A stretch of 64,000 nucleotides of DNA from a virus. Shown here one piece after another: positions 35,477-52,389 of the stretch. Positions within the stretch are counted from its first letter, which is position 1. Each line of letters begins with the position of its first letter. The position numbers and the translations under genes were made by a program. Below the pieces are notes generated by a model. That model saw only the letters and a list, made by a program, of their open reading frames with translations. It did not search any database and had not been told where the DNA came from. Where the stretch lies: the IMG/VR virus record IMGVR_UViG_3300047388_000107, positions 1 to 64,000 of that record, one strand, 5' to 3'.

Positions 35477-35494
35477 GAAAGTTCTCCATTTGAG

Positions 35495-35525: not shown

Positions 35526-35534
35526 AACGATAGC

Positions 35535-37553: not shown

Positions 37554-37572
37554 GACAGTCCTCCAATTGGTA

Positions 37573-37600
37573 GCCGGGATCGGTTGCCGCCGATCCCGGC
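37573..37600 (-). promoter_or_regulatory. Perfect 11-bp hairpin in replication operon
   Basis: GCCGGGATCGG and CCGATCCCGGC with a 6-base loop, immediately upstream of the GGAGG of the 37553 gene and without a U-run. An RNA processing or attenuation element is more likely than a terminator (inference). Confidence 0.6.
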
Positions 37601-37644
37601 CCGCAAACAGCTGTGAAAGCATAAACAGCTATTTACGTTTTGCG

Positions 37645-38097: not shown

Positions 38098-38294
38098 TAT
38101 GACTGCTCCCGGCCCCTGATTAAACGTCGTACCAGCGAACGGGCCTTAAACTCGCTCCGACGATCTGATGTTGTGACACTGCAAACGATGGTAGGAAGAC
38201 CGTTTGCCTTGATCTTGAAATGCTTATTGCGTTCGATCCGGTACTCGATACCGGCGCGGTCCAGTTCTTCAGTGGTGACACTGAGGGTCGTCAT
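38097..38294 (-). CDS. HicA-like small protein, 65 aa
   Basis: LDRAGIEYRIERNKHFKIKA followed by SVTTSDRRSEFKARSLVRRL resembles the HicA-like dsRNA-binding fold (a His/Lys patch, then a Ser-Arg turn and an Arg-rich helix) often found as a lone phage gene without HicB. Toxin activity is not implied. The start overlaps a micro-ORF (ATGA). Confidence 0.5.
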   Translation of the reverse strand: MTTLSVTTEELDRAGIEYRIERNKHFKIKANGLPTIVCSVTTSDRRSEFKARSLVRRLIRGREQS

Positions 38295-38374
38295 GTCTGA
38301 TGAACCTTTCTGGCTTTGTCGTACCAGCCTTTTACCATCATGCGCCCGTTCGCTGACTTGCGCATTTTACGCAT
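38291..38374 (-). CDS. 27-aa micro-ORF duplicating the helicase C-terminus
   Basis: Encodes MRKMRKSANGRMMVKGWYDK then ARKVHQT. The SF2 helicase just upstream ends LRKSANGRITVKGWYDADGR then IHQIDN, so this is a partial tandem duplication of its last codons. The stop overlaps the next start, so it may be translated, or serve only to couple expression. Confidence 0.5.
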   Translation of the reverse strand: MRKMRKSANGRMMVKGWYDKARKVHQT

Positions 38375-38437
38375 CTGTTTCGACTGCGATATCGTAAAGT
38401 ATTACGACAACGCCAACACGGATCACCGTTAAATGTT

Positions 38438-40051: not shown

Positions 40052-40057
40052 GATTTA

Positions 40058-40086
40058 CGTATACGCTATCGCTTACGGATTGTCAA
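40058..40086 (-). promoter_or_regulatory. Strong promoter for the SF2 helicase
   Basis: Minus strand TTGACA (40086-40081), 17-base spacer, TATACG (40063-40058), then TAAATC and the ATG at 40051. Consensus -35 with optimal spacing; the GTATAC box overlaps the -10. It lies inside the 3' end of the upstream gene. Confidence 0.65.
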
Positions 40087-40330
40087 CACCGTTGAGATAT
40101 TTTTTATGCGCGTCCAGTATTTCTTGGCCGAATGTCTTGATGCGACCAGTCATAGCATTCAGCATGGTAGCGTGATCTCTGATCTGGTTCTCGATGCCTT
40201 CACTCAATGCTTTGGTGCTCGCCAACAGGTTCTGCGCCTCAAGCACGTTGTCTTCAGCCGATTTCAGCAATACCTTGATGAGCTGCTGAGCTATTTCTTC
40301 AAATTCATACGGAGGTTTTTCCACGTTCAT
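40073..40330 (-). CDS. Helical coiled-coil protein, 85 aa
   Basis: From ATG at 40330 (GAGCGAGAG upstream). Almost wholly helical: PYEFEEIAQQLIKVLLKSAE, then QNLLASTKALSEGIENQIRD and a tail. It matches in layout the phage B protein at 53891-54250, which sits after the DUF2815 gene (DFEHLGETLSDSLVQAAEDL and a similar tail). Function unknown; probably an oligomer. Confidence 0.6.
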   Translation of the reverse strand: MNVEKPPYEFEEIAQQLIKVLLKSAEDNVLEAQNLLASTKALSEGIENQIRDHATMLNAMTGRIKTFGQEILDAHKKYLNGVDNP

Positions 40331-40484
40331 TCTCTCGCTCCTGCCATTCCATGCATGCTTGGACTGCTTTCTCTCTGGTTCGGATGTTGGTTTGCACGAC
40401 TTCGCATCGAGTAAACGTTGCATCTACCCTGATGATCTCCCAGATGCTGTTGTCTTCCACGGCAAAATACAAATCGTTTGACAC
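40305..40484 (-). CDS. Hypothetical protein, 59 aa
   Basis: GTG start at 40484 with GGGAG upstream. Sequence begins VSNDLYFAVEDNSIWEIIRV and ends in a helix (REKAVQACMEWQEREN). The VQTNIRTREKAVQACMEW pattern is compact and protein-like. It overlaps the 85-residue gene by 26 bases. Function unknown. Confidence 0.5.
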   Translation of the reverse strand: MSNDLYFAVEDNSIWEIIRVDATFTRCEVVQTNIRTREKAVQACMEWQERENERGKTSV

Positions 40485-40506
40485 TGTGATGCTCCCTGAT
40501 TAGAAC
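40478..40506 (+). promoter_or_regulatory. Promoter for GcrA-like gene
   Basis: TTGACA (40478-40483), 17-base spacer, TAGAAC (40501-40506), 32 bases before the ATG. It overlaps the GTG start of the divergent 40305 gene, and is followed by CGCATACGTTATCG, a variant of the GTATAC box. Confidence 0.5.
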
Positions 40507-40538
40507 TTATCGCATACGTTATCGGAAAGGATTAGTCA

Positions 40539-40901
40539 ATGAGAATGGTTTGGACTAAGGAGATGGATATTGCATTGAAAGTTTTGATCGAAGAAGGAGT
40601 ATCCTACAAACAGATCGCAAAACAACTGAGTGCCGCATACGGTCTCGAGTTCACCAAGAATTCCTGTGTTGGAAGAGCCAACAGGCTGAGAAGGCCATCC
40701 CCACCACCGCCACAAAAAGTGACGATCTACGATCTGCGCGATGACCGCTGCAAATGGATATTGGGAGCTGTCAATGACAAGCCTCCGTATCTGTACTGCG
40801 GCAAACCCACCGGAGAACTTGGCATCTCATGGTGCCCGGTCCACGCCAGAAAAGTGTTCAACAAGACTAACGACATCGCCAAGATTTACCTCCGTGCGTG
40901 A
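40539..40901 (+). CDS. GcrA-family transcriptional regulator
   Basis: 120 residues. The N-terminal helix-turn-helix (VWTKEMDIALKVLIEEGVSY, then KQIAKQLS and NSCVGRANRL) and a C-terminal Cys-rich RNA-polymerase-binding region (CKWILG, YLYCGKPT, SWCPVHARKVF) match GcrA. In alphaproteobacteria GcrA binds sigma70 and activates promoters methylated at GANTC. A phage copy could redirect host or phage transcription (inference). It is a lone rightward gene in a leftward block with its own promoter. Confidence 0.8.
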   Translation: MRMVWTKEMDIALKVLIEEGVSYKQIAKQLSAAYGLEFTKNSCVGRANRLRRPSPPPPQKVTIYDLRDDRCKWILGAVNDKPPYLYCGKPTGELGISWCPVHARKVFNKTNDIAKIYLRA

Positions 40902-41415
40902 TCACTTTGTGCATGTCGTGCTGTTGACAGACATCTCTCACATCTAAACTAGCCAGCATCTGGCGCGTTGCACGAAACGTGCGGTTCATGAATTTTCGCC
41001 GGGCATCCCAGTTCGTATCTGCTGTTGCGTCTATAAAATTTTTCTCTTCTGGCGTAGCCACGGGGATGATGCGCTCAGTCTTGACCACTACTACCGGAGG
41101 GTTAAGACCAAAATTGAGAGAATGAGCTATCTCGGCTGGTGTTTGTTTTCCGTAAGCATCCCTGAGCGCCTTGGCTTTCTGTTCTTCAGTTGGAAACTTT
41201 GGTACTGTTGGGGCTCCAATCAGCATGGTGCCTGTTTTGTATGCGTCTTCTTTCTGCTTTTCAGGAGGCTGAATTTTAACGAGTTCTTCGTCGGTTACGA
41301 GCGGTCTTTGCAGCCCCAGCACCGTCATATTATCGGGCTTCATCCGCGTCCCCTCCAGTCTTTGTTGAGCCGATACAGCCGTTGTCATCAGCAGCAAAGC
41401 GACAAGTGTTTTCAT
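40867..41415 (-). CDS. Exported protein of unknown function, 182 aa
   Basis: Clear Sec signal peptide (MKTLVALLLMTTAVSAQQ, cleavage likely after SAQ or VSA). The mature part is charged with NFIDATADTNWDARRKFMNR and ends in KSWRCR; a C-terminal Cys pair could form a disulphide. Periplasmic location is expected. A phage gene with a signal peptide suggests superinfection exclusion, lysis support or host envelope alteration (inference). Convergent with the GcrA-like gene. Confidence 0.55.
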   Translation of the reverse strand: MKTLVALLLMTTAVSAQQRLEGTRMKPDNMTVLGLQRPLVTDEELVKIQPPEKQKEDAYKTGTMLIGAPTVPKFPTEEQKAKALRDAYGKQTPAEIAHSLNFGLNPPVVVVKTERIIPVATPEEKNFIDATADTNWDARRKFMNRTFRATRQMLASLDVRDVCQQHDMHKVITHGGKSWRCR

Positions 41416-43692
41416 CTAAGCCTCCCATGGCATCTTGAATGTGAATGGAGTGGATTGCATTGGCTGCCAAGTTTCACCCCAGTCACAGCCAATCAGCCAC
41501 GTCGTATCCGAATTGGTGACGACAAGACCGCGCAGCCTCAGACTGTTGAGGCAATCCTTGCCATCAACGAAGCCCGCTTCAATCTCCTTGATCGCTACTG
41601 GCGTCAGGATCATGTAGGTAACTTCCGGTGGTACGCCGTTCGGCGCATACTGCGCCTTGATCTCGTCGGTTGCTGGCGTCTTGGGACAGCGCTTCAACAG
41701 ATTAATCACGCCCGCAATGCGCTCCCGGTAAGGCAACCCGGTCGCCATGTAGAAACCACGCGATGGGCGGTTAACTTGATTGCTCTTCATCATTCGCATC
41801 AGGTAAGTCGCAACGTTCTTCTCGCTAATGCCGGTACGCACGGAGATGTCGCCTGCGGTCAGGCAGCATGCCGCAGTATGCAACGCCATTACCACTTCAC
41901 GGGTCTTGGTACCTTCGCCCGGCAGGAACAGTTCTGCCGCAGTCTGCGCCGGTTTCCACATTGGATTAGTGCCTTCCTTGATCATCTCGAAATCAAATTC
42001 CAGAATGTCGCGCATCCGGCTTTCGATCTTCACTACGTCGCCTTCCTTACCGATAATGATGGCGCCGTCCGCCGCGCCGCTGACGCCAAACGAGCCGTTG
42101 ATGCTGTCGATAGCGTCATCAACTTTACCTTTTTTAGTATGATGCACGACTAAGATCAAGACATTAAATTCCCATGCCAACCGCTGTACCGAAGCGACGA
42201 CTTTGTAATCCATCTGGTAGGCGTTGTCGGTCCGTTCTATCTTGCCACGAACCTGTTGCAGTACGTCGATCACCACCAGCCTGACACTGGGAAAGGTCTG
42301 TAAATTCGCCCTGATGTCATCCAGCAGCGTGCCGGTATCGTCGGCATTGACATAAAAAGGACCGTCCCTGCCATAACGCATCTTCATGTTTCTTCCTGCG
42401 CTGAAGCCTTTCGGCCGCAACAGCTTGATGCGTTCCTGAATGCGGCGCTCGCTGTCTTCCAGCATGTACATCAGCACTTCGCCATGCTGGCACTGTTCGC
42501 CCCAGAACAAGTTGCCTTCTGCGATGCTGAGTGCCAGTTCCAGAATGATCCAGCCTTTGCCGATTTTTGGCTTGCCTGCAAAAACGATGCAGCCAGCATC
42601 AGGAAGAAAGCGGTTCACCAGAAATTTCTGCGGCAGGAACGTCTTGTACATCAAGTCTTCAACGGTTCCGGCAGGATAACCCCGGCCGCTCGGCATCGGC
42701 AGCGGCTGCTTGGCCTTCAGCACCGCGACATTCTGGGCGAGCCCCATCGAGGCGCCGACACCACGGGCGAAGTCACGCTGGTCACCTTGACCCAGCGAAC
42801 CCGGCAGCATGCCGAAGGTTTCATCAGCCAGTTGGCCGATTTCAGCCAGTATCGGGTTGTCAATGCTCTCGTATTCTGTGATATTTTTGCAAACCTGATA
42901 CATGGCGTCGGTCAGCATCGGCGCAGTGCCGCTGGCTTTGATCAGCGCGCCATATTTCAGACCGAGACTGAACAGCTTGGTACCGCGTCCTGATCCTGCA
43001 GGCATGTTATCCACATAAAAAAGCATGCTTTTTATGTCGGCTTTGAACTCATTGAGGTTTTCCAGTGTCAGCATGGCGAGATCAGCTGCGCTCAAAGGTA
43101 CAGCTTCAATAAGCATGCTTTTCCGCAAGGCGAAACCAGCCGCAGTGACCGACGCTTCCAGTCCGGTTCGCAGTACATCAGCAAACACGAACGGCGGCAT
43201 CTGATCGAAGATGCTGGCGCCTTGATGCCAGTATTCCGTTGGATCATTCGGCAGCGGCGTTTTGTTGTGATAATTGCCCCACCAGACAACTTGCTTGCCT
43301 TCGCCCAGCAGCTGAACCGGACCGAATTTTTCCTGCTTGATGACGCCGGGCTGGGTGATGATGAGCGTGGCAGGACGGCGGCCCCAACGCCAATGGGTCG
43401 GATGAAAGAAAGTGTTGAGCGTGTTGGCAAAAGTCAGAGCTTTGGTGTTGTCGTCAATGTCGCAATCGACGCAGCGTACCTCGATAGGCCCCAACACCGG
43501 ATGGATGGTGAAACCAAGCTGGACCCCTACGCCGGTACATTCAGGCGCCAGAATATTGTTCAGCCGTATTTCAAGCGGAAATGTGTTCCATCCGGTGCCG
43601 CCCAGCGGTATCTTGCCGGTGACCGGGACCGGCAACAGTCCATGGATGGAATGCAGCTCGCGGGCTAATTTAACCAGCTCTTGCTTGTTCAC
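41416..43692 (-). CDS. Bifunctional primase/polymerase-helicase
   Basis: 758 residues from GTG at 43692. The N-terminal archaeo-eukaryotic primase-like domain has CVDCDIDD (about 77), RWGRRPATLI and VQLLGEGKQVVW. A RepA/DnaB-like ATPase follows: FAGKPKIGKGWI (Walker A, about 375), MYMLEDSERR, LVVIDVLQQV (Walker B, about 474), LILVVHHTKKG. A C-terminal winged-helix-like region follows (ISVRTGISEKNVATYLMRMM). It probably initiates replication. The gene itself contains two AAGCATGCTT palindromes (43022-43029, 43112-43119), and four more lie just upstream of its operon. Confidence 0.85.
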   Translation of the reverse strand: MNKQELVKLARELHSIHGLLPVPVTGKIPLGGTGWNTFPLEIRLNNILAPECTGVGVQLGFTIHPVLGPIEVRCVDCDIDDNTKALTFANTLNTFFHPTHWRWGRRPATLIITQPGVIKQEKFGPVQLLGEGKQVVWWGNYHNKTPLPNDPTEYWHQGASIFDQMPPFVFADVLRTGLEASVTAAGFALRKSMLIEAVPLSAADLAMLTLENLNEFKADIKSMLFYVDNMPAGSGRGTKLFSLGLKYGALIKASGTAPMLTDAMYQVCKNITEYESIDNPILAEIGQLADETFGMLPGSLGQGDQRDFARGVGASMGLAQNVAVLKAKQPLPMPSGRGYPAGTVEDLMYKTFLPQKFLVNRFLPDAGCIVFAGKPKIGKGWIILELALSIAEGNLFWGEQCQHGEVLMYMLEDSERRIQERIKLLRPKGFSAGRNMKMRYGRDGPFYVNADDTGTLLDDIRANLQTFPSVRLVVIDVLQQVRGKIERTDNAYQMDYKVVASVQRLAWEFNVLILVVHHTKKGKVDDAIDSINGSFGVSGAADGAIIIGKEGDVVKIESRMRDILEFDFEMIKEGTNPMWKPAQTAAELFLPGEGTKTREVVMALHTAACCLTAGDISVRTGISEKNVATYLMRMMKSNQVNRPSRGFYMATGLPYRERIAGVINLLKRCPKTPATDEIKAQYAPNGVPPEVTYMILTPVAIKEIEAGFVDGKDCLNSLRLRGLVVTNSDTTWLIGCDWGETWQPMQSTPFTFKMPWEA

Positions 43693-43723
43693 GGCAACAC
43701 CCCACCACGGAGAGACGAACACC

Positions 43724-43897
43724 CTACTCTTGTTCTATCGGTTCGTCACAGGCGTATCGCTCCATGATGTCGTGGCGAAACATCGCCATCTTGCGGGTGT
43801 GGCAGCGTGGGCATGTGTAGCACAGGAAGATGCCGTAGCCGTCAAACTGCGGCTCACGCTGTTCACCTGATCCGCATGGGCAGTATCTCAATTTCAT
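43724..43897 (-). CDS. Small zinc-ribbon protein, 57 aa
   Basis: Start ATG at 43897 with GGAGG. Cys pairs at CPCGSG and CYTCPRCH suggest a zinc ribbon, then MAMFRHDIMERYACDEPIEQ. Similar small proteins occur in plasmids and phages of Rhizobiales-type bacteria (from memory). First gene of the primase-helicase operon, immediately downstream of four palindromic repeats. Confidence 0.65.
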   Translation of the reverse strand: MKLRYCPCGSGEQREPQFDGYGIFLCYTCPRCHTRKMAMFRHDIMERYACDEPIEQE

Positions 43898-43910
43898 CCT
43901 GTCCTCCAAT

Positions 43911-44010
43911 AAAAAGCATGCTTTTTTCGCGCCACCAATAAGCATGCTTTTTTCGATAGCGCAATCATAAAAGCATGCTTTTTTATCCACAGGAAAAAGC
44001 ATGCTTTTTT
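43911..44010. repeat. Four AAGCATGCTT palindromes upstream of primase operon
   Basis: GCATGC cores at 43916, 43942, 43973 and 43999 (spacing 26, 31, 26), each flanked by A-runs and T-runs so that the full unit AAAAAGCATGCTTTTTT is self-complementary. Two further copies with AAGCATGCTT lie in the primase-helicase coding sequence. They are adjacent to the replication initiator, hence candidate iterons of an origin or operators (inference). Confidence 0.85.
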
Positions 44011-44196
44011 GTGTCCGGCCGGGCCGCCCCCGGCCGCGCGCCCGCTCGGTCCGCGCCGCGCGCCTGCCACAATTTCGCCGCATTCTAGCCACAATTCTGG
44101 TATCTTGTATACTGTATACCAGCATACGCTGCGGCGCGGGAGGAATGCTGCGCCGCAGCGGGAACCGGCTGGCTAGCTCGTCTGGCTGGCTGGCTG
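44011..44196. other. Non-coding GC-rich stretch with hairpin and GTATAC pair
   Basis: No convincing gene. It contains a GC-rich block (CGCGCGCCCGCTCGGTCC), two adjacent GTATAC boxes (44107, 44114), and an 11-bp hairpin, CGCTGCGGCGC and GCGCCGCAGCG (44127-44137 and 44150-44160). Together with the palindromes at 43911-44010 it is a candidate replication or control region. Confidence 0.5.
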
Positions 44197-44274
44197 TCAG
44201 GAGAACAGAAAATAAACCGTCAGCAGAGCAAACACAGCTGCCATGGTCAGTGCGTATTCCGCGTCATTCGTCAT
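44197..44274 (-). CDS. 25-aa membrane peptide
   Basis: MTNDAEYALTMAAVFALLTV then YFLFS: one hydrophobic helix. The ATG lies within the last codons of the upstream gene. Similar to the 32-residue peptide at 47241-47339. Could be a small membrane effector; support is only composition and coupling. Confidence 0.35.
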   Translation of the reverse strand: MTNDAEYALTMAAVFALLTVYFLFS

Positions 44275-44473
44275 AGCCGTAGCCGCCCTCTGCCCGATCC
44301 GCGCAAGCGTCGCACTGGTAACCAAGCCGCTTGTCGGCTGGCGTGAGCCGGTTAGGTTGTCTGCAGGCAGGGCATGGCAGGTTACGGGGATTGCCGCGCC
44401 GTGCTGCCCGCAGCGCGCTGCGTCCACCGGGATCGGCAAAGTCCGGCCCATTATCGTCGTCATAGCGTCTCAT
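44264..44473 (-). CDS. Zinc-ribbon protein, 69 aa
   Basis: Cys pairs in NLPCPACRQPNRLTPADKRL and YQCDACADRAEG give a single zinc ribbon after a basic N-terminus. Function unknown. First gene transcribed into the control region at 43.9-44.2 kb. Confidence 0.55.
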   Translation of the reverse strand: MRRYDDDNGPDFADPGGRSALRAARRGNPRNLPCPACRQPNRLTPADKRLGYQCDACADRAEGGYGYDE

Positions 44474-44550
44474 TGTAAGCCTCGCTGGTTGGTTTGTTTT
44501 GGCTGCCCGTTATTGGGTAGCTCTCGAATGGATGGCCGCTCACTGACCTT

Positions 44551-44585
44551 CCTATTGCCTCAAGCCCGGACCGTCGAAAGACGGT
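44551..44585 (-). repeat. Recurring intergenic hairpin element, copy a
   Basis: CCTATTGCCTCAAGCCCGGA followed by ACCGTC-GAAA-GACGGT. The shared CCTA..G.CTCAAGCCCGG string recurs at 46177 and 47634, always in gaps of the leftward small-gene island. Probably an RNA hairpin between genes, not a strong terminator. Confidence 0.6.
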
Positions 44586-44915
44586 TCAATCGTCGGCCGG
44601 TTCTTCCTCTTGGGGCCAGTCAAATGTTTCGGTCGCGTCGTTCCATTGCATCCCAACAGGGACTAGCCACAATGCGCCGTCTTGGTGCAAGTGATAGACT
44701 ACGCCGTCAATGTTCACGACCGCATTGTCGAGAACATATTGCCATTCGTCCCAATAGCATTCTTGATCGGGGCCGTTCTCCAGAACGGTCCAAACTTGCT
44801 CGCGAATGCCAATGACATGCGTGGCGCGGTCGGTCCAACAGTTGGCGAAGTCGCGCGGAATGTAGACGCCGCGATGATCATCAAGCCACAGCAGTACGTC
44901 AGGTTTGCCAGTCAT
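44586..44915 (-). CDS. Hypothetical accessory protein, 109 aa
   Basis: LWLDDHRGVYIPRDFANCWT, WDEWQYVLDNAVVNIDGVVY and LHQDGALWLVPVG are signatures of a small family widespread on alphaproteobacterial plasmids, ICEs and phages (from memory). Function unknown; possibly anti-defence. Overlaps upstream gene. Confidence 0.65.
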   Translation of the reverse strand: MTGKPDVLLWLDDHRGVYIPRDFANCWTDRATHVIGIREQVWTVLENGPDQECYWDEWQYVLDNAVVNIDGVVYHLHQDGALWLVPVGMQWNDATETFDWPQEEEPADD

Positions 44916-45199
44916 GAGTAGTAGCTCCCAATTTTGATCTGTTCACCATCCGGAGAAAGCCTGATCAGAACGCCAGAGAAATAGCTGTCGCTGGCATAGC
45001 CGTCCCAATTTTTCAGGTCGTCGCTATCGCAGGCCATGAACCCGTCCAGATGATACCAGTAACCGCGATAGCAAAAGAAACCATCCAGCACTTCTTCTGC
45101 GTTCTGGTAGCTGAATTGATCGGCTAGCACATCTGCCGGAACGTCGGAGCGGTAAACCAGATCACGCCACTTGTGATCGGTCCTGATGGTCAGGGTCAT
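44912..45199 (-). CDS. Hypothetical accessory protein, 95 aa
   Basis: WRDLVYRSDVPADVLADQFS, DGFFCYRGYWYHLDGFMAC and YFSGVLIRLSPDGEQIKIGS mark another small family common on alphaproteobacterial mobile elements (from memory), often next to the family of the 44586 gene. Function unknown; both ends overlap neighbours. Confidence 0.65.
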   Translation of the reverse strand: MTLTIRTDHKWRDLVYRSDVPADVLADQFSYQNAEEVLDGFFCYRGYWYHLDGFMACDSDDLKNWDGYASDSYFSGVLIRLSPDGEQIKIGSYYS

Positions 45200-45471
45200 G
45201 GCTGATGCTCCTTTTCCGCTTTCTCAATCGCGCTCTCGATCCATACGGCCAGATCAGACCGCGCGCGTTCGATATCTTTTTTGCCCTTGTACAAATGGCC
45301 CGTGTAATGGCTGGCTGCGCTTAGCGCGTGCGCCAAGCTTTTCCACGATCGGTGCGGCTTGATGCCTACGGCCATCAGCCTTAAGCCGCTCCGCAACGCG
45401 GCGGCTTGGAACGTGTGAACGTCCGAACCGATAAAGCTGACGGCGTTGCCGTTGTCGTCGTAGCCGATCAT
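45196..45471 (-). CDS. Hypothetical accessory protein, 91 aa
   Basis: From ATG at 45471. Starts MIGYDDNGNAVSFIGSDVHT and ends in a charged helix (ARSDLAVWIESAIEKAEKEH). Function not recognised. Coupled to both neighbours by overlapping start/stop codons. Confidence 0.55.
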   Translation of the reverse strand: MIGYDDNGNAVSFIGSDVHTFQAAALRSGLRLMAVGIKPHRSWKSLAHALSAASHYTGHLYKGKKDIERARSDLAVWIESAIEKAEKEHQP

Positions 45472-45680
45472 CGCTTGATTTCCTTCTGCGGTTTGAGAAT
45501 GTAGGCATGCTCCGCGATGTGCGGGTTGTTGTCGCGCAGGCCGCGCATGTAGCATTCGGCCAGTTCGCGCGTCGACGTGCGGTACAGCGACCGCATGTTG
45601 TGCGGCGGATCGATGACGACAGTCCATTGGGTTTCGTGAAACAGTCTGACCGGATGCCGGTCTTGGTGCCATGTGCTCAT
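45468..45680 (-). CDS. Hypothetical accessory protein, 70 aa
   Basis: MSTWHQDRHPVRLFHETQWT, then DPPHNMRSLYRTSTRELAEC. Compact, no recognised fold. Both ends overlap neighbours by 4 bases. Confidence 0.5.
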   Translation of the reverse strand: MSTWHQDRHPVRLFHETQWTVVIDPPHNMRSLYRTSTRELAECYMRGLRDNNPHIAEHAYILKPQKEIKR

Positions 45681-45871
45681 TGATATTTCCTCTCTCCGTG
45701 AAAAGCTTCACGGCATATCCGGTTAAATTGTCGCTCCGACATCGCGGCCAGTGCTTCGCTGTTGGGAAATTTGCCGATTGTGACAAAGCGCTGCATTCCA
45801 GAAGCTTTTTGCAGCACTGCGATTTGGTAACCGTACCAAACGACTTTCCATAGCTTGCTTTCGATATTCAT
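45677..45871 (-). CDS. Hypothetical accessory protein, 64 aa
   Basis: From ATG at 45871: MNIESKLWKVVWYGYQIAVL, then SEALAAMSERQFNRICREAF. The last segment (MSERQFNRICREAF) echoes the F-x-x-x-C-R-x-A ending of the three-paralogue family at 348, 50902 and 51482, suggesting a distant member. Coupled both sides. Confidence 0.5.
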   Translation of the reverse strand: MNIESKLWKVVWYGYQIAVLQKASGMQRFVTIGKFPNSEALAAMSERQFNRICREAFHGERKYQ

Positions 45872-46134
45872 TGCCCGATCCTCCGATAGCGCCGAATGGA
45901 GCTGTTGCCCTCGCAATGCATGTTGGCGAGCTGCGGGTACTCGCCGCACTTGGCGCGGTAGGCTTCCATGAACTTCGCCATGTCGCAATCTTCTTCCAGA
46001 TAAAGCCAGTTGGCTTTCTGGTAACTGTATCTGGAGAAGTCAGCGACGCGCAATCCGACGTCGCCCGCGTCTTGATCCCGCACCGCTAACCATCCGTGAC
46101 TGCAATCGGTGTGATAGGTGAAACGTGTTCGCAT
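45868..46134 (-). CDS. Hypothetical accessory protein, 88 aa
   Basis: MRTRFTYHTDCSHGWLAVRD, GDVGLRVADFSRYSYQKANW and YLEEDCDMAKFMEAYRAKCG. The H-x-D-x-S-H-G-W-L-x-V start and S-Y-x-x-x-x-x-x-Y-L-E-E-D-x-D pattern is a common phage/plasmid small family of unknown function (from memory). First gene of an overlapping group of six. Confidence 0.55.
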   Translation of the reverse strand: MRTRFTYHTDCSHGWLAVRDQDAGDVGLRVADFSRYSYQKANWLYLEEDCDMAKFMEAYRAKCGEYPQLANMHCEGNSSIRRYRRIGQ

Positions 46135-46176
46135 GTGATCTGCTCCTGTGAGAGGCCGTTCGTTCAGGGACCATTC

Positions 46177-46242
46177 CCTATTGGCTCAAGCCCGGTATGC
46201 GTCAGACCAGAATTTTAAAATTCTGTCGAAGCAGCCGGGCTT
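46177..46242 (-). repeat. Recurring intergenic hairpin element, copy b, enclosing a palindrome
   Basis: CCTATTGGCTCAAGCCCGG, with AAGCCCGG (46188-46195) pairing to CCGGGCTT (46235-46242). The loop holds the perfect 18-bp palindrome CAGAATTTTAAAATTCTG (46208-46225), whose near copies are at 308 and 50863. Confidence 0.7.
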
Positions 46243-46260
46243 AAACCAATGTTGGTTTGA

Positions 46261-46452
46261 TTACGTTACTCGGGTCTTTGCCGCTAACCGTTCAATGGCT
46301 TTGGCATCAACCGTCCACTCCTTTGCCAGATTGTTATCCTGCCAATTGGTCTGAACATGATCCGATTTTTCGTGACAAATCTCGGCAATGAAAAACAGCA
46401 CTTTGCTTAGTCCGAATTTGTCGATCATCATTTCCAGATCATCTTTGTTCAT
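46261..46452 (-). CDS. Hypothetical protein, 63 aa
   Basis: From ATG at 46452 with GGAG. MNKDDLEMMIDKFGLSKVLF, then ICHEKSDHVQTNWQDNNLAK. Similar small acidic proteins are found in phages and plasmids (D-K-F-G-L-x-x-V-L-x-x-I-A-E-I-C); function unknown. Confidence 0.55.
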   Translation of the reverse strand: MNKDDLEMMIDKFGLSKVLFFIAEICHEKSDHVQTNWQDNNLAKEWTVDAKAIERLAAKTRVT

Positions 46453-46465
46453 GTCCGTTGCTCCT

Positions 46466-46972
46466 TCAAAAAATCTTATCGATACATTCGGGACCAAAAC
46501 CTGAGGCGACCGATGACGGCACGGTCAGCTTGCGATTGCAGCGACCGCAACGGCCTTCATGCCAGATTTCCAGCTGATCCGGGATGGTGTCGCGGACAAT
46601 GGCTTTCCAAGCCCAAGCGAACGCGATTGCCGATGGCGCATCTGCGCCGATATCGCCAAGGCGAGGGTTCTTGCGGCCAAGCCAGAATACATCGCGAGAG
46701 ATACGGCCAAGATACTGGTAGTCTTGTTCGTTATTGGGACCGGACAATAGCGCCACGAAATGGCATTGGCCGTCCGGCGAGCTAGACACCCGATAGGTGA
46801 AACGAGCGCCGGTCTTTTTCGAGACCAGCGTCAAGGTTGACTTGCCAGCGAGCGCAAAGCGCTTAGCATCCAACGCGGTGACTAACCGGCCGGACATATC
46901 CGTGGTGTCCGCTGAAGATTTGATTTCGGCGCTATCCAGATCGTCATTCAAGGTGGCGAAAAAATCAGTCAT
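46466..46972 (-). CDS. DUF6011-like domain protein, 168 aa
   Basis: From ATG at 46972. The C-terminus GRCGRCNRKLTVPSSVASGF then GPECIDKIF is the DUF6011-type knuckle, with four Cys likely to bind zinc. The N-terminal region (ALAGKSTLTLVSKKTGARFT) is a small beta domain often fused to it in phage proteins. Possible nucleic-acid binding; function unknown. Confidence 0.65.
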   Translation of the reverse strand: MTDFFATLNDDLDSAEIKSSADTTDMSGRLVTALDAKRFALAGKSTLTLVSKKTGARFTYRVSSSPDGQCHFVALLSGPNNEQDYQYLGRISRDVFWLGRKNPRLGDIGADAPSAIAFAWAWKAIVRDTIPDQLEIWHEGRCGRCNRKLTVPSSVASGFGPECIDKIF

Positions 46973-46985
46973 GACGGTTGTTCCT

Positions 46986-47165
46986 TTAGCTGGATTTAAC
47001 GAGGCGAAACTCGGCAACGACCCATTCGATGCCATCCGGCCGCATCACTTTGTAAAAAATTTCGCCGCTCGGTGTTTTGCCAAGTACGCAAATGACGTCC
47101 ATTTCAGTATCAACGGCGGGATAACCGCAAGCCCGCATCCAGTTGGCGCTAACCGTGACTTTCAT
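46986..47165 (-). CDS. Hypothetical protein, 59 aa
   Basis: Begins MKVTVSANWMRACGYPAVDT and contains IEWVVAEFRLVKSS at the end: a compact beta-type protein, coding sense supported by composition. No clear ribosome binding site; position between two real genes of the same direction. Confidence 0.5.
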   Translation of the reverse strand: MKVTVSANWMRACGYPAVDTEMDVICVLGKTPSGEIFYKVMRPDGIEWVVAEFRLVKSS

Positions 47166-47240
47166 CGTGGTATCTCCAGTGTGAGAGGAAAGAAAAAAAA
47201 CAGTCCGATAGCATTAGCGCTATCGGGACCGTGGATCAAG

Positions 47241-47339
47241 TCAGAAAATGATAATCATTGCGCCGTAATAGACCGTGGCTAAGAACAGGAATAGCACGGC
47301 GAACGCCAGCCAGTTGGCTACGGGATCATCGTTCCACAT
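47241..47339 (-). CDS. 32-aa membrane peptide
   Basis: MWNDDPVANWLAFAVLFLFL then ATVYYGAMIIIF: one transmembrane helix. The ATG lies inside the upstream stop region. Similar in kind to the 25-residue peptide at 44197. A small inner-membrane effector is possible (inference). Confidence 0.4.
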   Translation of the reverse strand: MWNDDPVANWLAFAVLFLFLATVYYGAMIIIF

Positions 47340-47586
47340 TGAATTTATCCAATAGCGAAGAATGATTGCACGCTTCGATAAACCGGTCAGCGTCAAAGCG
47401 ACCGTTCGAACGTTTACAGGCTGCTACGAAGCTATTGAGGACCGATTGCCATTGTGCGTGCTTGTTAGCGTCCCAATTCGCCATTGGCCTGCTTTCGGCC
47501 AGCACGGCGGCGATAAAGCAGAAATGACGATGTTGCAGTTCAGGGATTTTGTCCCTGTTGATGGTGGATCGGTCGCGTCCGTTCAT
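47326..47586 (-). CDS. Hypothetical protein, 86 aa
   Basis: MNGRDRSTINRDKIPELQHR followed by FCFIAAVLAESRPMANWDAN and a helical C-terminus (RFDADRFIEACNHSSL). The H-F-x-F-I-A pattern recurs in small phage/plasmid proteins of unknown function. Confidence 0.55.
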   Translation of the reverse strand: MNGRDRSTINRDKIPELQHRHFCFIAAVLAESRPMANWDANKHAQWQSVLNSFVAACKRSNGRFDADRFIEACNHSSLLDKFNVER

Positions 47587-47633
47587 GATGTTTGCTCCGT
47601 GAGAGGATATCGGAGAGACCGGGATGGCCCTCC

Positions 47634-47672
47634 TACGGCCTCAAGCCCGGACCATCTTTCGATGGCCGGGCT
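47634..47672 (-). repeat. Recurring intergenic hairpin element, copy c
   Basis: CTACGGCCTCAAGCCCGGAC; AGCCCGG-A-CCATC pairs with GATGG-CCGGGCT across a TTTC loop (47644-47672). The best-formed of the three copies, a 12-bp stem with one bulge. Confidence 0.65.
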
Positions 47673-47692
47673 ATCGGCAGGTAAAGACTGGT

Positions 47693-47857
47693 TTATGGCA
47701 GTTGTCTTTCGGCCTGATAGAGCGCGAAGGCTAACAGCTTCTGGTCCGTGGTGGTCAGCATGCAAACGGCCATGGCATGCCTGCGGGCATAGGATCGCAG
47801 CTTGCGGGCATTGGTGAGGGTGGGAGCGAGCATCCATCGGTTGAGAAGTTTAAGCAT
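47693..47857 (-). CDS. Hypothetical basic protein, 54 aa
   Basis: From ATG at 47857 with GGAG. MLKLLNRWMLAPTLTNARKL, then RRHAMAVCMLTTTDQKLLAF. Helical, basic. Similar mini-proteins occur on plasmids of Rhizobiales (from memory). Function unknown. Confidence 0.5.
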   Translation of the reverse strand: MLKLLNRWMLAPTLTNARKLRSYARRHAMAVCMLTTTDQKLLAFALYQAERQLP

Positions 47858-48102
47858 GTGAGCGTCTCCATGGGTTGAAGCGTCATTGAAGCACAAACGA
47901 TAGCGTTACCGCTAATAAAAACACGTTTTCACGTCTTCACATTTGGTTACAGGCTGTAGGCTCTAGGATTGGATTAGAAGGCCATAGAGTGGGGTCTCCC
48001 CACAGAGCTACAGAGTGACCGGATTGGGAAAATAACGCATCAGTGACGTTTTCGTGTTTTGTTCTTGAGTGTATACGCTATGGAACTAGCGGGCAGGTTG
48101 TA
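47858..48102. other. Non-coding leader with GTATAC box
   Basis: No gene seen. Holds ACGATAGCGTTACCGCTAAT (inverted GATAGCG/CGCTA motif near 47898) and TTGAGTGTATACGCTATGG (GTATAC at 48071-48076), both variants of the box seen at 40059 and 49319. Likely promoter/operator DNA for the leftward small-gene island. Confidence 0.45.
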
Positions 48103-48339
48103 TTACTTTTTTATCCGGATGAAATCATACCTGTGGCTATTGTTGATGCACCATCCGGTTCTTTTTTGTTTTTGAAAATTGACAATGATGTTGCCATATT
48201 CATTGGGCTGCCATTCGCAGTCGCGCTGTTTGGCGATTAGAGCGGCGAACTCATCATGGTTGTGTTTTTCGTATGGAACTAAGCGGCGCGAATACAGAAC
48301 AGTGCGGCCGGGTAGTCTTCTGACATAGACGTAAGTCAC
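48103..48339 (-). CDS. Hypothetical protein, 78 aa, GTG start
   Basis: Starts (GTG) TYVYVRRLPGRTVLYSRRLV, then KHNHDEFAALIAKQRDCEWQ. GGAG lies 6 bases before the GTG. An antisense frame at 48043-48240 is judged a shadow. Function unknown. Confidence 0.55.
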   Translation of the reverse strand: MTYVYVRRLPGRTVLYSRRLVPYEKHNHDEFAALIAKQRDCEWQPNEYGNIIVNFQKQKRTGWCINNSHRYDFIRIKK

Positions 48340-48841
48340 GTGACGCTCCTATGGTTGTAGACGTTAGTAATGGGACCGGGTTTGAGGTTCACCCTACAAA
48401 GACAATTACTACAAGCGTCATCGCTATCGAGTTCCAAAATATGATTGTTTAATAATTTCAATGATTTAACTTGCCTACTGAAATTTTGTAGTTTTGGCCT
48501 GTTGGGATGTAGGTGTGTGGGAGGTTAAGTCATTGAAATCATTGTGTTATTTTTTATTTTTCTTACATTTGGGGGGGTCAAAACGCTTAAGAGGGGTAAA
48601 AAAGAATATTGAAAAAATGTTTGTTCCCGGTATGTCTAGGGACCGTTGAAATGATTATGTTATTTTGACCTACATGTGTTTGTTCTTGGTTTGTTCGTGT
48701 CTGTCACCTACAACCACGATCCGCCCACATGTAATAATACAAGCCAAAAATCAAGTTAAGTCCATGACCGGTCTACACTAATCGCTATAACCCTACCAAC
48801 CCCACAAAAATACATTAAAAGGGGGGTTTTGTTGTGGGGTG
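48340..48841. other. AT-rich non-coding region with inverted repeats
   Basis: About 500 bases without a convincing gene. A 15-bp inverted repeat (TTTCAATGATTTAAC at 48456-48470, GTTAAGTCATTGAAA at 48524-48538) has one mismatch. A similar TTGAAATGATTATGTTATTT recurs at 48648. A 9-bp hairpin, ACCCCACAA and TTGTGGGGT (48799-48807, 48832-48840), lies at the end of the 48842 gene and could end its transcript. T-rich runs and low GC stand out. Candidate origin or non-coding RNA locus (inference). Confidence 0.5.
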
Positions 48842-49297
48842 CTAAAAAGCGCTTAAAGTGGCTCTAGTCCGGTCCACTATTTTGAGTGTGGGGGAGGCTT
48901 CGGAAAGCGCAAAATAGGCAATTGGCGCTCTATCCATCGCGGTCGCAAATAGGAGGCGTGTGGGGCCGTAAAACAGGCTTTCGACTACGCCAAGTGCGCG
49001 ACCTGCTTCGATGCGGGCGGAAACTAGATCGATAGCGTCGGTCGCGGTTTCGATTGACCATTGCGCGCCCTCGTAGGCAAGGACGGCGGCGAACAAGAGG
49101 TTTAGCGCATCTAGGATCAAATCGGCTTGGATGTCGGATAAACCGAGCATTTCGCGCTTGATCGGCATCAAGGCGATACCGGCCGGTTTGAGGGCGCGAG
49201 CGCCCGCGTTAAGGATTTGTTCGAGTTCCGCGCGTGCTTCGTGAAAGACGATCTCAGAAAAACCGGTGAACAGAGCGGGAACGGTTTTATCGGTCAT
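48842..49297 (-). CDS. Hypothetical protein, 151 aa
   Basis: From ATG at 49297 (AAAGGG upstream at better spacing than the ATG at 49303). Begins MTDKTVPALFTGFSEIVFHE; helical and Ala/Leu-rich (LILDALNLLFAAVLAYEGAQ) with a central possible amphipathic or membrane-associated helix. Function not recognised. First leftward gene from the divergent region. Confidence 0.5.
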   Translation of the reverse strand: MTDKTVPALFTGFSEIVFHEARAELEQILNAGARALKPAGIALMPIKREMLGLSDIQADLILDALNLLFAAVLAYEGAQWSIETATDAIDLVSARIEAGRALGVVESLFYGPTRLLFATAMDRAPIAYFALSEASPTLKIVDRTRATLSAF

Positions 49298-49315
49298 TTG
49301 CATGGCCCTTTTACT

Positions 49316-49348
49316 AGTGTATACGTTAGCGTGTGGGATGATCCCACA
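49316..49348. promoter_or_regulatory. Divergent early promoter with GTATAC box and operator palindrome
   Basis: TAGTGTATACGTTAGCG (GTATAC 49319-49324) followed by the perfect inverted repeat TGTGGGAT-G-ATCCCACA (49332-49348) just before the GGAGG of the rightward 49363 gene. It lies between the leftward 48842 gene and the rightward early operon, so one element could serve both directions. Confidence 0.6.
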
Positions 49349-49362
49349 TAGGAGGATTGAAT

Positions 49363-49656
49363 ATGAACATGCGAATTGAAACAATCGACTATGCCGTGAT
49401 GGTAGATGAACTGGCAGAACTCAAGGCGAGCATCGCGCCACTGCAAGAACGTGAAGCTACGTTGAAGGACCTGTTCAAAGAAGGCGGACGCGACCGCTAC
49501 GATGGAACCGGGCACACCGCTGTTGTCGTGCTGTCCGAGCGGGACAGTCTCGACACCAAGCGGCTGCGAGCGGACCTAGGCGAGGAACTGTACCTGTCCT
49601 ATTGTTCCAAGACGTCGGTCACGGCCGTTCGCCTGACCGCTCGTAAAACCCATTAG
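49363..49656 (+). CDS. Hypothetical helical protein, 97 aa
   Basis: ATG at 49363 with GGAGG 7 bases before. A coiled-coil N-terminus (VDELAELKASIAPLQEREAT) is followed by YDGTGHTAVVVLSERDSLDT and a basic end. The layout resembles small phage proteins that wrap or bind DNA or a partner protein (pattern only). First rightward early gene, presumably abundantly expressed soon after infection. Confidence 0.55.
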   Translation: MNMRIETIDYAVMVDELAELKASIAPLQEREATLKDLFKEGGRDRYDGTGHTAVVVLSERDSLDTKRLRADLGEELYLSYCSKTSVTAVRLTARKTH

Positions 49657-49667
49657 GACGGTCACTC

Positions 49668-49829
49668 ATGGGTCATGCAATGTTGTTCGCGGGGGTAATA
49701 GCCCTCGTCGCTCTCGCCTTTGGCAAGGACGCTGCGGTCATCCTAGCCCGTATCCTCGTGATCGGTATTCCCTTAGTGATCGCAGTCCTTCTGCTCTGCG
49801 CTAGCGCTGGCGTGTTCAAAGGTCTGTAA
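49668..49829 (+). CDS. Small two-helix membrane protein, 53 aa
   Basis: MGHAMLFAGVIALVALAFGK then VILARILVIGIPLVIAVLLL: two hydrophobic segments. AGGAC lies upstream of the ATG. Could be a holin-like or host-membrane effector. Early-operon position favours an effector (inference). Confidence 0.5.
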   Translation: MGHAMLFAGVIALVALAFGKDAAVILARILVIGIPLVIAVLLLCASAGVFKGL

Positions 49830-50008
49830 AGCTGACCTGACGTTTGTTGCGACGCGACGGCCCGGACGCAAGTTCGGGCCTATGCGCGTCTGCGCGCGGC
49901 TCACCCTCGAACCGTTGCCGCTCGAACCACTCGCTTTCCTTCCCGGTCTCCCTGCTGGTATGTGGGATGTGGCATAGCGTATACCAGTAACCACTGGTAT
50001 CTGGCATG
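49830..50008. other. Start of 550-bp non-coding control region
   Basis: No gene seen between 49830 and 50379. This part has a GTATAC box (49979) and repeated GGTATCTGG/CCAGTAACCACTGG strings leading into the 31-bp palindrome. Confidence 0.4.
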
Positions 50009-50039
50009 TGGTATCTGGTATACAGTATACCAGATACCA
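50009..50039. promoter_or_regulatory. 31-bp perfect palindrome of GTATAC boxes
   Basis: TGGTATCTGGTATAC, a single A, then GTATACCAGATACCA: 15-bp arms are exactly self-complementary. Each arm ends in the same GTATAC box that occurs in divergent promoters across phage A. A dimeric regulator binding site is the likeliest reading. Confidence 0.8.
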
Positions 50040-50128
50040 GAAGGTACCGAATGTGACAGAAAGGTGGTCGGATCGCTTTCGGGTACCGGTAACGGGCGAT
50101 GGCGGCGGCAGGCTGGCGCTAGATACCC

Positions 50129-50284
50129 CACCCCCTAGGAATTTTTAGTATACAAGTTTACTGATAACAGTAACACGCCGTGTGATACCCTACCCCCTAG
50201 GAAATTTTAGTATACAAGTTTACGCCCGTAGGGTAAGTTTACAAATCCTCCACCCCCTAGGAAATTTTAGTATACAAGTTGACA
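50129..50284 (+). repeat. Three iterons at about 60-bp spacing
   Basis: The unit CCCCCTAGGAA-TTTTAGTATACAAGTT occurs with GTATAC at 50148, 50210 and 50270 (62 and 60 bp apart, i.e. near whole helical turns). Each contains the self-complementary CCTAGG and GTATAC. The third ends AAGTTGACA, creating a -35 hexamer for the downstream promoter (50279-50306). Candidate origin iterons or promoter operators. Confidence 0.85.
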
Positions 50285-50306
50285 AATGCTTTAGCGGTGT
50301 TATGGA
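50279..50306 (+). promoter_or_regulatory. Promoter of rightward early genes
   Basis: TTGACA (50279-50284), 16-base spacer, TATGGA (50301-50306), about 73 bases before the 50380 start codon. Its -35 is the end of the third iteron, so a protein bound there would block or recruit RNA polymerase. Confidence 0.55.
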
Positions 50307-50379
50307 ACTATGCTAAAGTCCGGTCCCTCTGGTGGAACAGAAGTAACAAACCGCCGCCAAGTGCGAGCTGGCAGGAAAG

Positions 50380-50640
50380 ATGGCAAAAATGGCAGACAAC
50401 CGGCTCGATCTCATTCGTTCCATCGTGCTGGCGGCCGATCAGGCCCGCGACAATCCCGATCTGGCGTGGCGGACCCTCAGCCAGATCAAGCGGTTGCTGG
50501 TCGAGCCTGACTTGAACCAGCGGCGTGTTAGGGCGCTGCAGTTCATCAAGGCACTCGCGGCCGATGATCTGGGCGATCCTCCGACGGTCCGATTGGCAGC
50601 AATCTGGCAAGCGGCGCATGACGCGCTGCGTGAGGTTTGA
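50380..50640 (+). CDS. Hypothetical helical protein, 86 aa
   Basis: MAKMADNRLDLIRSIVLAAD, then TLSQIKRLLVEPDLNQRRVR. Preceded by AGGAAAG. Wholly helical and Ala/Leu-rich; function not recognised. Confidence 0.5.
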   Translation: MAKMADNRLDLIRSIVLAADQARDNPDLAWRTLSQIKRLLVEPDLNQRRVRALQFIKALAADDLGDPPTVRLAAIWQAAHDALREV

Positions 50641-50642
50641 AA

Positions 50643-50915
50643 ATGGCTAAACGCGAGCGCAAGCTGTCAGCCTCCACGGTGCGCGACATGGCCCGCAGGC
50701 GAGGACTGGCGATCCACAGGGCAGTAGCTGGCGGCTGGTACGTCGTGCTGATAGGCTACGTCTCCGGTCAGCCAGCCCCTACCCCGGTCCTCTATGCCAC
50801 CCACGACTGGAACAAGGCCAAGGCGTTCGTCAAAAAGCAGCCGACCATCATCAAGGTTCGGCCAGAATTTTCAAATTCTGTCGATAGGGAGAGTGACGAG
50901 GATGACAAGAGCTAA
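50643..50915 (+). CDS. Hypothetical basic protein, 90 aa
   Basis: ATG at 50643 (GAGG 7 bases before). MAKRERKLSASTVRDMARRR looks like a small helix-turn-helix or basic arm, followed by a beta segment (GWYVVLIGYVSGQ) and an acidic tail. The 3' end contains the palindrome at 50863-50880. The stop overlaps the next start by 14 bases. Confidence 0.5.
   Translation: MAKRERKLSASTVRDMARRRGLAIHRAVAGGWYVVLIGYVSGQPAPTPVLYATHDWNKAKAFVKKQPTIIKVRPEFSNSVDRESDEDDKS
50863..50880. repeat. CAGAATTT-AAATTCTG palindrome, copy 3
   Basis: CAGAATTTTCAAATTCTG, identical with flanks (about 25 bases) to the reverse complement of the copy at 308-325, again near the end of a small gene. Confidence 0.6.
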
Positions 50916-51180
50916 CACCAGACCGTACAGCCAGCTGCACAACGACATGCTCAAGCATCTGACCATCCAGCTGCGCAAGGCCAACTACGACGTCGCGCAG
51001 ACTTGCGAGCTGGCCGACATCGCTCCGGAAATGATCACCCAGATCATCGTCTCGGCACTGCTGGCCGAAGCCATTCATGGCATGGCGGTCCTTGAGATGT
51101 CCGAAACCCAGTTTATCGCGCTGTGCCGCCGCGCCTACCGGCAGCTCTATCCGGAAATATCGCAAAGTATGGGCCGATGA
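50902..51180 (+). CDS. Small helical protein, three-paralogue family, member 1
   Basis: 92 residues: SQLHNDMLKHLTIQLRKANY, CELADIAPEMITQIIVSALL, then MSETQFIALCRRAYRQL. Shares helix-Cys-helix-F-x-x-C-x-x-A-Y order with the 51482 and 348 proteins. GAGG precedes the ATG. Function unknown. Confidence 0.65.
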   Translation: MTRANTRPYSQLHNDMLKHLTIQLRKANYDVAQTCELADIAPEMITQIIVSALLAEAIHGMAVLEMSETQFIALCRRAYRQLYPEISQSMGR

Positions 51181-51217
51181 TTACGCTGCTGGCCATCACA
51201 ACTCACGAGGCCGTTCG

Positions 51218-51328
51218 ATGACGCTGACCCTGATAACCATCAGTGTACTGGTTGGGGCGGTCCTGCTGCTGCTGATCGAAGCCGCCATTCTTGCCTTGTT
51301 ATTCGCCAGCGAGTGGCGCGAAAGGTGA
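51218..51328 (+). CDS. 36-aa membrane peptide
   Basis: MTLTLITISVLVGAVLLLLI then EAAILALLFASEWRER: one transmembrane helix with a charged tail. GAGG upstream. In the early operon; possibly targets the host membrane (inference). Confidence 0.45.
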   Translation: MTLTLITISVLVGAVLLLLIEAAILALLFASEWRER

Positions 51329-51338
51329 GAGCAACAAC

Positions 51339-51485
51339 ATGAGCCGCAAAATGGTTCTGACGTTTGACGAGCACGATTATGACCAGCTGATCTTGCTGGC
51401 CAAATTGCACAAGTGCAGCGTTACCGAGCTGGTGCGCCGCATCGTCCGCGCCCATCTCGACAAGCGCGAGCTGGAGTTAAAATGA
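51339..51485 (+). CDS. Ribbon-helix-helix protein, 48 aa
   Basis: MSRKMVLTFDEHDYDQLILL then SVTELVRRIVRAHLDKREL: the strand-helix-helix of Arc/CopG regulators. A candidate for binding the GTATAC boxes or the palindrome at 50009. Coupled to the next gene by ATGA. Confidence 0.65.
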   Translation: MSRKMVLTFDEHDYDQLILLAKLHKCSVTELVRRIVRAHLDKRELELK

Positions 51486-51769
51486 CCTATAAAGATAACG
51501 CTATTTTTAAAGATGTGGCGCAGCATTTTGCCGAACGCTTGCAGCAGCTGGTCAGAGATACCAGAGATACTTGCGCGCAGTCGAGATTGACACCGGACGA
51601 TTGCGTCATGCTGGTAACCATACATCTGTGGTACCAGCTGGCGCGCGCCGCTCACGCGGGCGAGATCAGCGAGGCCGATTTCGTCAAGGCGGCCTCCTTG
51701 GCTTATTGCGATATCAAGGGCTGGCTGGAGCAGCAGCTCAGCAAAAATTCTGGTCCTAAGAAAAATTAA
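51482..51769 (+). CDS. Small helical protein, three-paralogue family, member 2
   Basis: 95 residues: FKDVAQHFAERLQQLVRDTR, LTPDDCVMLVTIHLWYQLAR and ISEADFVKAASLAYCDIKGW. Closest relative in the window is the 348 protein (F-x-E-R-L-x-x-L-x-x-D, V-x-L-x-T, A-x-x-G). Function unknown. Confidence 0.65.
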   Translation: MTYKDNAIFKDVAQHFAERLQQLVRDTRDTCAQSRLTPDDCVMLVTIHLWYQLARAAHAGEISEADFVKAASLAYCDIKGWLEQQLSKNSGPKKN

Positions 51770-52021
51770 ATGAGTAACGACGCCAGTTTAATCGAACACC
51801 TGCGCTATCACGCCTCCGACCTTGGCGCGCATGCCGTGCCGTGCCGGGAAGCTGCCGATCAGATCGAGCGGCTTGAGGCGGCGCTGCAGTTCTATCGCGA
51901 TGGATGGATGTTCCAGACACACAAAAGTATGCCGGGACTATCATGGTCTCCAAAAGAAGAATTGCTTGATGATTGCGGCAACATCGCCCGCGCCGCACTG
52001 GGCAAGGATACAGGAAAATGA
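51770..52021 (+). CDS. Hypothetical helical protein, 83 aa
   Basis: MSNDASLIEHLRYHASDLGA, CREAADQIERLEAALQFYRD: the H-C-R-x-A-A-D-x-I-E-R-L helix is a common phage mini-protein pattern, often annotated only as hypothetical. The stop overlaps the next start (ATGA). Confidence 0.55.
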   Translation: MSNDASLIEHLRYHASDLGAHAVPCREAADQIERLEAALQFYRDGWMFQTHKSMPGLSWSPKEELLDDCGNIARAALGKDTGK

Positions 52022-52389
52022 AAAAGACGCTTCCTCAGCTGCTGGAAACAGCCCGCCTCCGCGCTGGCGCTTACGCCTCAAGGACCGGAGATCAGCATGG
52101 CGCGTTCAAGCTCATTGCGCCATCGCGGCGGCTGGCGGTGCTCTCCAGCGGCCCCAATGAGGGTTGGGAGCATGTCAGCGTTTCAGCCCATGACCGCACC
52201 CCGACGTGGAAGGAAATGTGCTGGATCAAGGATCTGTTCTGGGACGACGATGAAGTGGTGATGCAGTTGCATCCGGCCAAGCGGGATTACGTCAACCACC
52301 ATCCGTATTGCCTGCACCTCTGGCGGCCGCTCGAAGGCGTCATCCCGTTGCCGCCGTCGGAGTTTGTCGGGCCGAAGGAAACGGCATGA
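52018..52389 (+). CDS. DUF7694-like protein, 123 aa
   Basis: ATG at 52018 overlaps the upstream stop. LAVLSSGPNEGWEHVSVSAH, RTPTWKEMCWIKDLFWDDDE and YVNHHPYCLHLWRPLEG are the conserved blocks of DUF7694, a small phage family of unknown role (recognised from memory). The last 121 bases lie within the 127-bp repeat, so this gene is intact both in the assembled join and in a circle closed at base 52268. Confidence 0.75.
   Translation: MKKTLPQLLETARLRAGAYASRTGDQHGAFKLIAPSRRLAVLSSGPNEGWEHVSVSAHDRTPTWKEMCWIKDLFWDDDEVVMQLHPAKRDYVNHHPYCLHLWRPLEGVIPLPPSEFVGPKETA

Follow-up and report, generated by a model that had tools for sequence, protein, structure and literature searches.

A threefold repeat as a probable operator-promoter unit of a GTATAC regulon in an uncultivated phage

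The P22 repressors Arc and Mnt are small ribbon-helix-helix (RHH) proteins that act on a palindromic operator inside promoters, including their own, and serve one switch. In pSM19035, dimers of the RHH repressor omega/ParB form an array on contiguous heptads (PMC9499535). Cluster A mycobacteriophages, which are temperate, repeat one short asymmetric site, the stoperator, in intergenic regions for one regulator (PMC9283540, PMC6550527). In the GcrA/CcrM control of Alphaproteobacteria, GcrA brings RNA polymerase to promoters (PMC3667746). Iteron origins have their direct repeats in control DNA between genes. We compared with these systems a repeat found in an environmentally sampled phage sequence.

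The window, that is the whole stretch of DNA analysed, comprises 64,000 nucleotides (positions 1 to 64,000) of the 79.8-kb IMG/VR record IMGVR_UViG_3300047388_000107. A repeat search of the window found a direct 40-nt repeat in exactly three copies, starting at 50122, 50184 and 50244. Their spacings of 62 and 60 bp agree with those given for a three-copy unit in an earlier, sequence-only reading. Copies 2 and 3 are 95% and 88% identical to copy 1. The repeats comprise:

50122..50161, plus strand: repeat copy 1 (GATACCCCACCCCCTAGGAATTTTTAGTATACAAGTTTAC)
50184..50223, plus strand: repeat copy 2
50244..50283, plus strand: repeat copy 3, in which a T-to-G change gives TTGACA at 50279-50284
50148..50153, 50210-50215 and 50270-50275, unstranded: putative GTATAC operator cores of copies 1, 2 and 3

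A 28-nt core is identical between copies at 27-28 of 28 positions, while the 20-22-nt linkers between the repeats align no better than shuffled linkers. Because the cores are near-identical and the linkers have diverged, each copy appears to be under selection rather than the product of a fresh duplication. Matches to the 28-nt pattern CCCCCTAGGAAWTTTTAGTATACAAGTT were confined to the three repeats in the window, with 0 matches in 100 shuffles; none was found elsewhere in the whole 79.8-kb record, and its 23-nt form gave none in other IMG/VR records. A chance or assembly repeat was ruled out by the empty shuffles, the distinct linkers and the conservation of the region. An Rfam search for a known RNA element was negative. 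The helical phasing that had been proposed for the copies is loose: at 10.5 bp per turn, 62 bp makes 5.90 turns and 60 bp makes 5.71, and copies 2 and 3 therefore lie about 0.3 turn out of phase.

The record holds two phages, and the repeats lie in the first:

1..52268, unstranded: complete circular phage carrying the repeats; its positions 1-127 recur exactly at 52269-52395, and from 52396 on the record is another phage

Positions 51976-79810 recur almost unchanged, with 7 mismatches, in another record of 41.5 kb, IMGVR_UViG_3300045120_000458 (G006), and a 49.8-kb relative of the first phage (G001) is collinear with window positions 937-50756 in circularly permuted form. Gene calling and PHROGs gave duplicated functions in the record, namely two exonucleases, two Gp2.5-like ssDNA-binding proteins and two kinds of head proteins. 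Judged from the 127-bp identity, the G006 match and the G001 collinearity, the contig is chimeric, with two phages joined at the exact 127-bp shared sequence and the repeats belonging to the first. A single 80-kb phage was ruled out by the duplicated functions, the exact join and the separate relatives of each part. As the contig joins two phages, gene content should be inferred from this record with caution. About 330 identical bp and a nearly identical 123-aa gene (52018-52389, PHROG 7839) in window 51976-52395 are apparently common to the two otherwise different phages, through recent exchange or as an effect of the assembly path.

A GcrA-domain protein (PF07750, E 7e-15) is encoded on the plus strand at 40539-40901, within a replication operon that reads leftward. 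Together with promoters of the CTTGAC-N17-CTATAT type, which is used for S. meliloti (PMC2573895), this protein indicates that the hosts are probably Alphaproteobacteria. The CcrM methylation site GANTC occurs 2 times in the 52 kb, where base composition predicts about 201; there are 0-8 in close relatives and 77 in G016, and several of these phages carry a GcrA homologue. This near-absence covers window 1-52268, G001, G007, G008, G013, G014, G015 and G018. GANTC depletion is known already for some pelagiphages (PMC9516812).

Relatives were recruited with the terminase and the 49363 protein, and their genomes were read whole or nearly so. Exact-pattern scans of IMG/VR for classes A and B gave, among other matches, only G001, G007, G008, G009 and G013 as members of the family; a further profile scan for relatives gave nothing new. 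A common layout was found 3' of the 49363 orthologue in G007, G008/G009, G013 and G001: 1-5 GTATAC-N-GTATAC palindromes, then GGTACCG...GGTGGT...GGTACCGG, then a repeat-like unit. The corresponding features of the window, with a further class A site, are:

49319..49324, unstranded: GTATAC between divergent genes 48842 (minus) and 49363 (plus), conserved in relatives
49955..49993, unstranded: degenerate second class A copy, from the repeat search
50009..50039, unstranded: class A palindrome TGGTATCTGGTATACAGTATACCAGATACCA, syntenic in relatives, 1-5 copies
50043..50092, plus strand: conserved non-coding element GGTACCG-N-GGTGGT-N-GGTACCGGTAA, between the class A palindromes and the repeats
44097..44122, unstranded: second class A site (CTGGTATCTTGTATACTGTATACCAG), upstream of the primase/helicase gene, which reads leftward

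The class A palindrome of G001 has changed on both sides, with its symmetry preserved. Arrays occupy the place matching 44097-44122 in G007 and G013, and one site does in G001. Palindrome arrays stand at two places about 5-6.5 kb apart per genome, one upstream of the primase gene and the other upstream of the rightward operon (window 44097-44122 and 50009-50039; G007 23735-23865 and 29876-29990; G013 26733-26783 and 20183-20265), and such pairs could permit DNA looping. GGTACC is a second palindrome enriched in intergenic sequence; in G015 and G018 it lies inside promoter-like spacers (TTGACTTGGTTTCCGGTACCGTTATTGT).

At the syntenic place G007, G008 and G013 carry one repeat-like unit each, G001 two degenerate ones and this phage three. 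The TTTTAGTATACAAGTTTAC of the window unit is identical in G007. Since relatives carry single or two degenerate units here, the window repeat is, on this comparison, a lineage-specific triplication of a conserved unit. Comparison with related phages, which the sequence-only reading had recommended, has explained the repeats through the syntenic control regions of five relatives.

The repeats are followed by a promoter-like sequence and the rightward operon:

50279..50306, plus strand: promoter-like TTGACA-16-TATGGA, with a weak -10 and no conservation in relatives
50380..50640, plus strand: first gene of the rightward operon, 3' of the repeats, without a family match

The operon continues past the point where the circle closes and reaches a protein of 1703 aa (weak tail-lysozyme match). 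An early promoter had been placed at 50279-50306, with its -35 supplied by copy 3. The AAGTTTAC of copies 1 and 2 indeed becomes AAGTTGAC in copy 3, and this single change creates a perfect TTGACA with a spacer of 16; however, the -10 matches consensus at 3 of 6 positions, the sequence was not among the promoters listed by a consensus scan of the window, and relatives do not conserve it. Copies 1 and 2 have a poor -35 and -10. The G008 unit (TTGACC-18-TACAAT) and the G013 unit (TTGTAG-16-TATACT) stand 25-45 nt ahead of the first gene with GTATAC in their spacers, and are plausibly themselves promoters of the rightward operon. The wider claim, that the repeats are coupled to transcription control, gains its support from this comparison and not from the single-base -35 argument, because GTATAC sits at promoters genome-wide and the G008 and G013 units are plausible promoters.

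No hexamer of this phage is more strongly enriched between genes than GTATAC: 15 of its 16 sites fall in the 11% of sequence that is intergenic (p about 4e-14), in about 9-10 control regions. It is also the top intergenic-biased hexamer in G007 (25/29) and G001, and stands near the top in G013 and G014; no such enrichment was found in the unrelated G006. TTGAC was found near single GTATAC sites above background in this phage, G007, G013, G014 and G018, the adjacency being non-significant in G001. The sites recur at orthologous promoters of the relatives compared. Those of this phage include:

25682..25687, minus strand: putative conserved operator site TTGACATTGTATACACT, before the minus-strand gene 25661
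40059..40064, minus strand: GTATAC overlapping the -10 of the helicase-gene promoter TTGACA-17-TATACG

TTGACATTGTATACACT is kept in G001, G007, G013 and G014, and with small changes in G018. In the promoter of gene 31514 the offset of GTATAC shifts between clades while the -35/-10 spacing stays at 17-18, which argues that GTATAC is an operator and not a core promoter element. A role as -10 or core element everywhere was ruled out by this clade-dependent position in the spacer, yet GTATAC does overlap the -10 at 40059. Coding GTATAC counts are near the synonymous-shuffle expectation in most relatives, with this phage (1 vs 5.2) and G014 (1 vs 6.7) falling below it; restriction-site avoidance is thus insufficient as a cause of the intergenic bias. 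Separately, the coding sequence of window 1-52268, G008, G013, G014 and G018 contains far fewer GAATTC sites, and more GATATC sites, than synonymous shuffles do.

The best candidate for a protein binding these sites is encoded by a small gene with a GTATAC in its promoter:

31514..31720, minus strand: protein of 68 aa, candidate GTATAC-binding repressor, RHH-like by sequence pattern alone
31756..31761, unstranded: GTATAC in the TTGACT-17-TATCTT promoter of gene 31514

In nine genomes this promoter reads TTGAC[TC]-17/18-TA with GTATAC in the spacer, adjoining the -10 in one clade and the -35 in another; in G013 the GTATAC-bearing promoter stands 199 nt from the called start of the homologue. 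If binding is as predicted, the regulator's own promoter holds its operator, overlapping core elements. Conservation of the protein amounts to 76-84% in the genomes with the strongest GTATAC signal and to 57-64% in G014, G015 and G018. The G016 homologue shares 30% identity; in that genome GTATAC enrichment was not found and GTGTAC/GTACAC is enriched, being present in the homologue's promoter and after TTGACA at 38448. Because the operator co-varies with the protein and the protein's own promoter carries the site, 31514 is the best candidate and probably binds GTATAC and represses. Another co-diverging regulator would fit the GTATAC/GTGTAC pattern as well. A second small protein, 32468, also has an RHH-like pattern.

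The structural model of 31514 (a monomer, pLDDT 73.7) has two helices only, at 20-32 and 36-60, after a strand-like segment. The protein had no match in Pfam and no significant match among PHROGs; PDB sequence and fold searches were uninformative, with no fold match. Two proteins had been suggested earlier as binders of the repeats. The 48-residue protein at 51339 gave no tblastn match in nine relatives and was set aside, while 31514 retains its candidacy through its conservation and the operator in its own promoter, its RHH-like character being a matter of sequence pattern.

We consider it probable that the repeats are an operator-promoter unit that serves the rightward operon, has been triplicated and belongs to a GTATAC regulon, with a 31514-type phage repressor as the most likely binder. 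The unit would consist of a C-rich box, a -35-like hexamer, TTTTA, GTATAC and then a -10-like stretch. A phage protein, most likely 31514, would occupy GTATAC inside promoters and so block RNA polymerase, its own promoter included. Such a repressor, autoregulated and with multiple operators, would have its site at many promoters, and 15 of the 16 GTATAC are intergenic. With three units, repression of the rightward operon would be tighter or respond more steeply, and there might be cooperative contact with the GTATAC-N-GTATAC palindromes that lie 100-150 bp upstream. Transcription may begin within each unit or from TTGACA-16-TATGGA. The repeats would most likely control when this viral gene block switches on. 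The repeats, their conservation, the intergenic enrichment of GTATAC and its position inside promoters are features of the genomes themselves; from them we infer which protein binds, that it represses instead of activating, that it acts cooperatively, and the timing.

An alternative that we regard as unlikely is that the region is a replication origin, in which the repeats and palindromes would be initiator-bound iterons and the TTGACA promoter would prime or activate. Cumulative GC-skew minima do lie within about 3.6 kb in 7 of 7 genomes, with maxima roughly 17-32 kb away, but gene orientation diverges at the region and confounds the skew. The locus offers tandem direct repeats, palindrome arrays whose copy number varies and a non-coding element that is strongly conserved; however, the unit is single in three relatives and GTATAC stands at many other promoters. 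Among the nearby genes scanned there is no iteron-type initiator, the replication gene being a primase/helicase-like protein.

It is also doubtful that the units are activator sites, at which a phage protein bound to the C-rich box or GTATAC would recruit host RNA polymerase to three tandem poor promoters. The window and G007 units pair a non-consensus -35 with the conserved C-rich box, and every phage with class A arrays has a GcrA gene; the GcrA-like protein of 40539-40901 is a candidate. GcrA, however, targets CcrM-methylated GANTC, of which this phage has only two, and G014 and G015 keep GTATAC promoter sites with no GcrA detected (G015 may be incomplete); on these grounds GcrA is disfavoured as the binder. 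The overlap of GTATAC with the -10 at 40059 and its variable offset in the spacer are typical of a repressor.

Sites of GntR-type factors often contain TTGTATACAA. That GTATAC is the site of a host regulator of this kind, exploited by the phage, is quite improbable: the palindrome resembles GntR/FCD operators, but in G016 the operator and a phage protein have changed together, the operator to GTGTAC/GTACAC, and the promoter of that protein itself contains one of the sites. A host factor would predict neither.

Beyond the favoured operator-promoter unit, a broader picture can be offered tentatively. This may be an undescribed phage family of alphaproteobacterial hosts in which most promoters are governed by one tiny repressor with a co-evolved operator (GTATAC/GTGTAC), and here the triplicated unit and double-palindrome arrays might form a graded genome-wide timer. 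A terminase search of 84,980 bacterial genomes found no prophage relatives. What began as an isolated repeat has led to a regulatory network, predicted to span the genome, in a group of uncultivated phages sampled from the environment. The group also provides a natural regulator-operator series (GTATAC vs GTGTAC; 30-84% identity to the window protein) for testing specificity change in a minimal DNA-binding protein.

Set against the described systems, the locus resembles an iteron origin in its direct repeats within an intergenic control region, but no initiator was found in the scanned genes, and ordinary promoters contain the same core element. With GcrA/CcrM control it has in common a promoter-associated site and a phage-borne GcrA homologue, whereas GANTC does not mark the promoters of this 52-kb phage. 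The 7-bp steps of GTATAC-N-GTATAC recall the heptads of pSM19035, though the scanned genes showed no ParA partner and the repeat units are single GTATAC sites 60-62 bp apart. Like stoperators, one short site recurs in intergenic regions, apparently for one regulator; unlike them, it is a palindrome inside promoters, in a phage whose terminase search gave no prophage relative. The likeness to Arc and Mnt lies in a small phage protein of RHH-like pattern with a putative palindromic operator inside promoters including its own, while 31514 is without a family match, is RHH-like by pattern, and would have many operators genome-wide. We therefore favour a phage repressor with multiple operators, which would be Arc/Mnt-like, or stoperator-like in its genome-wide spread.
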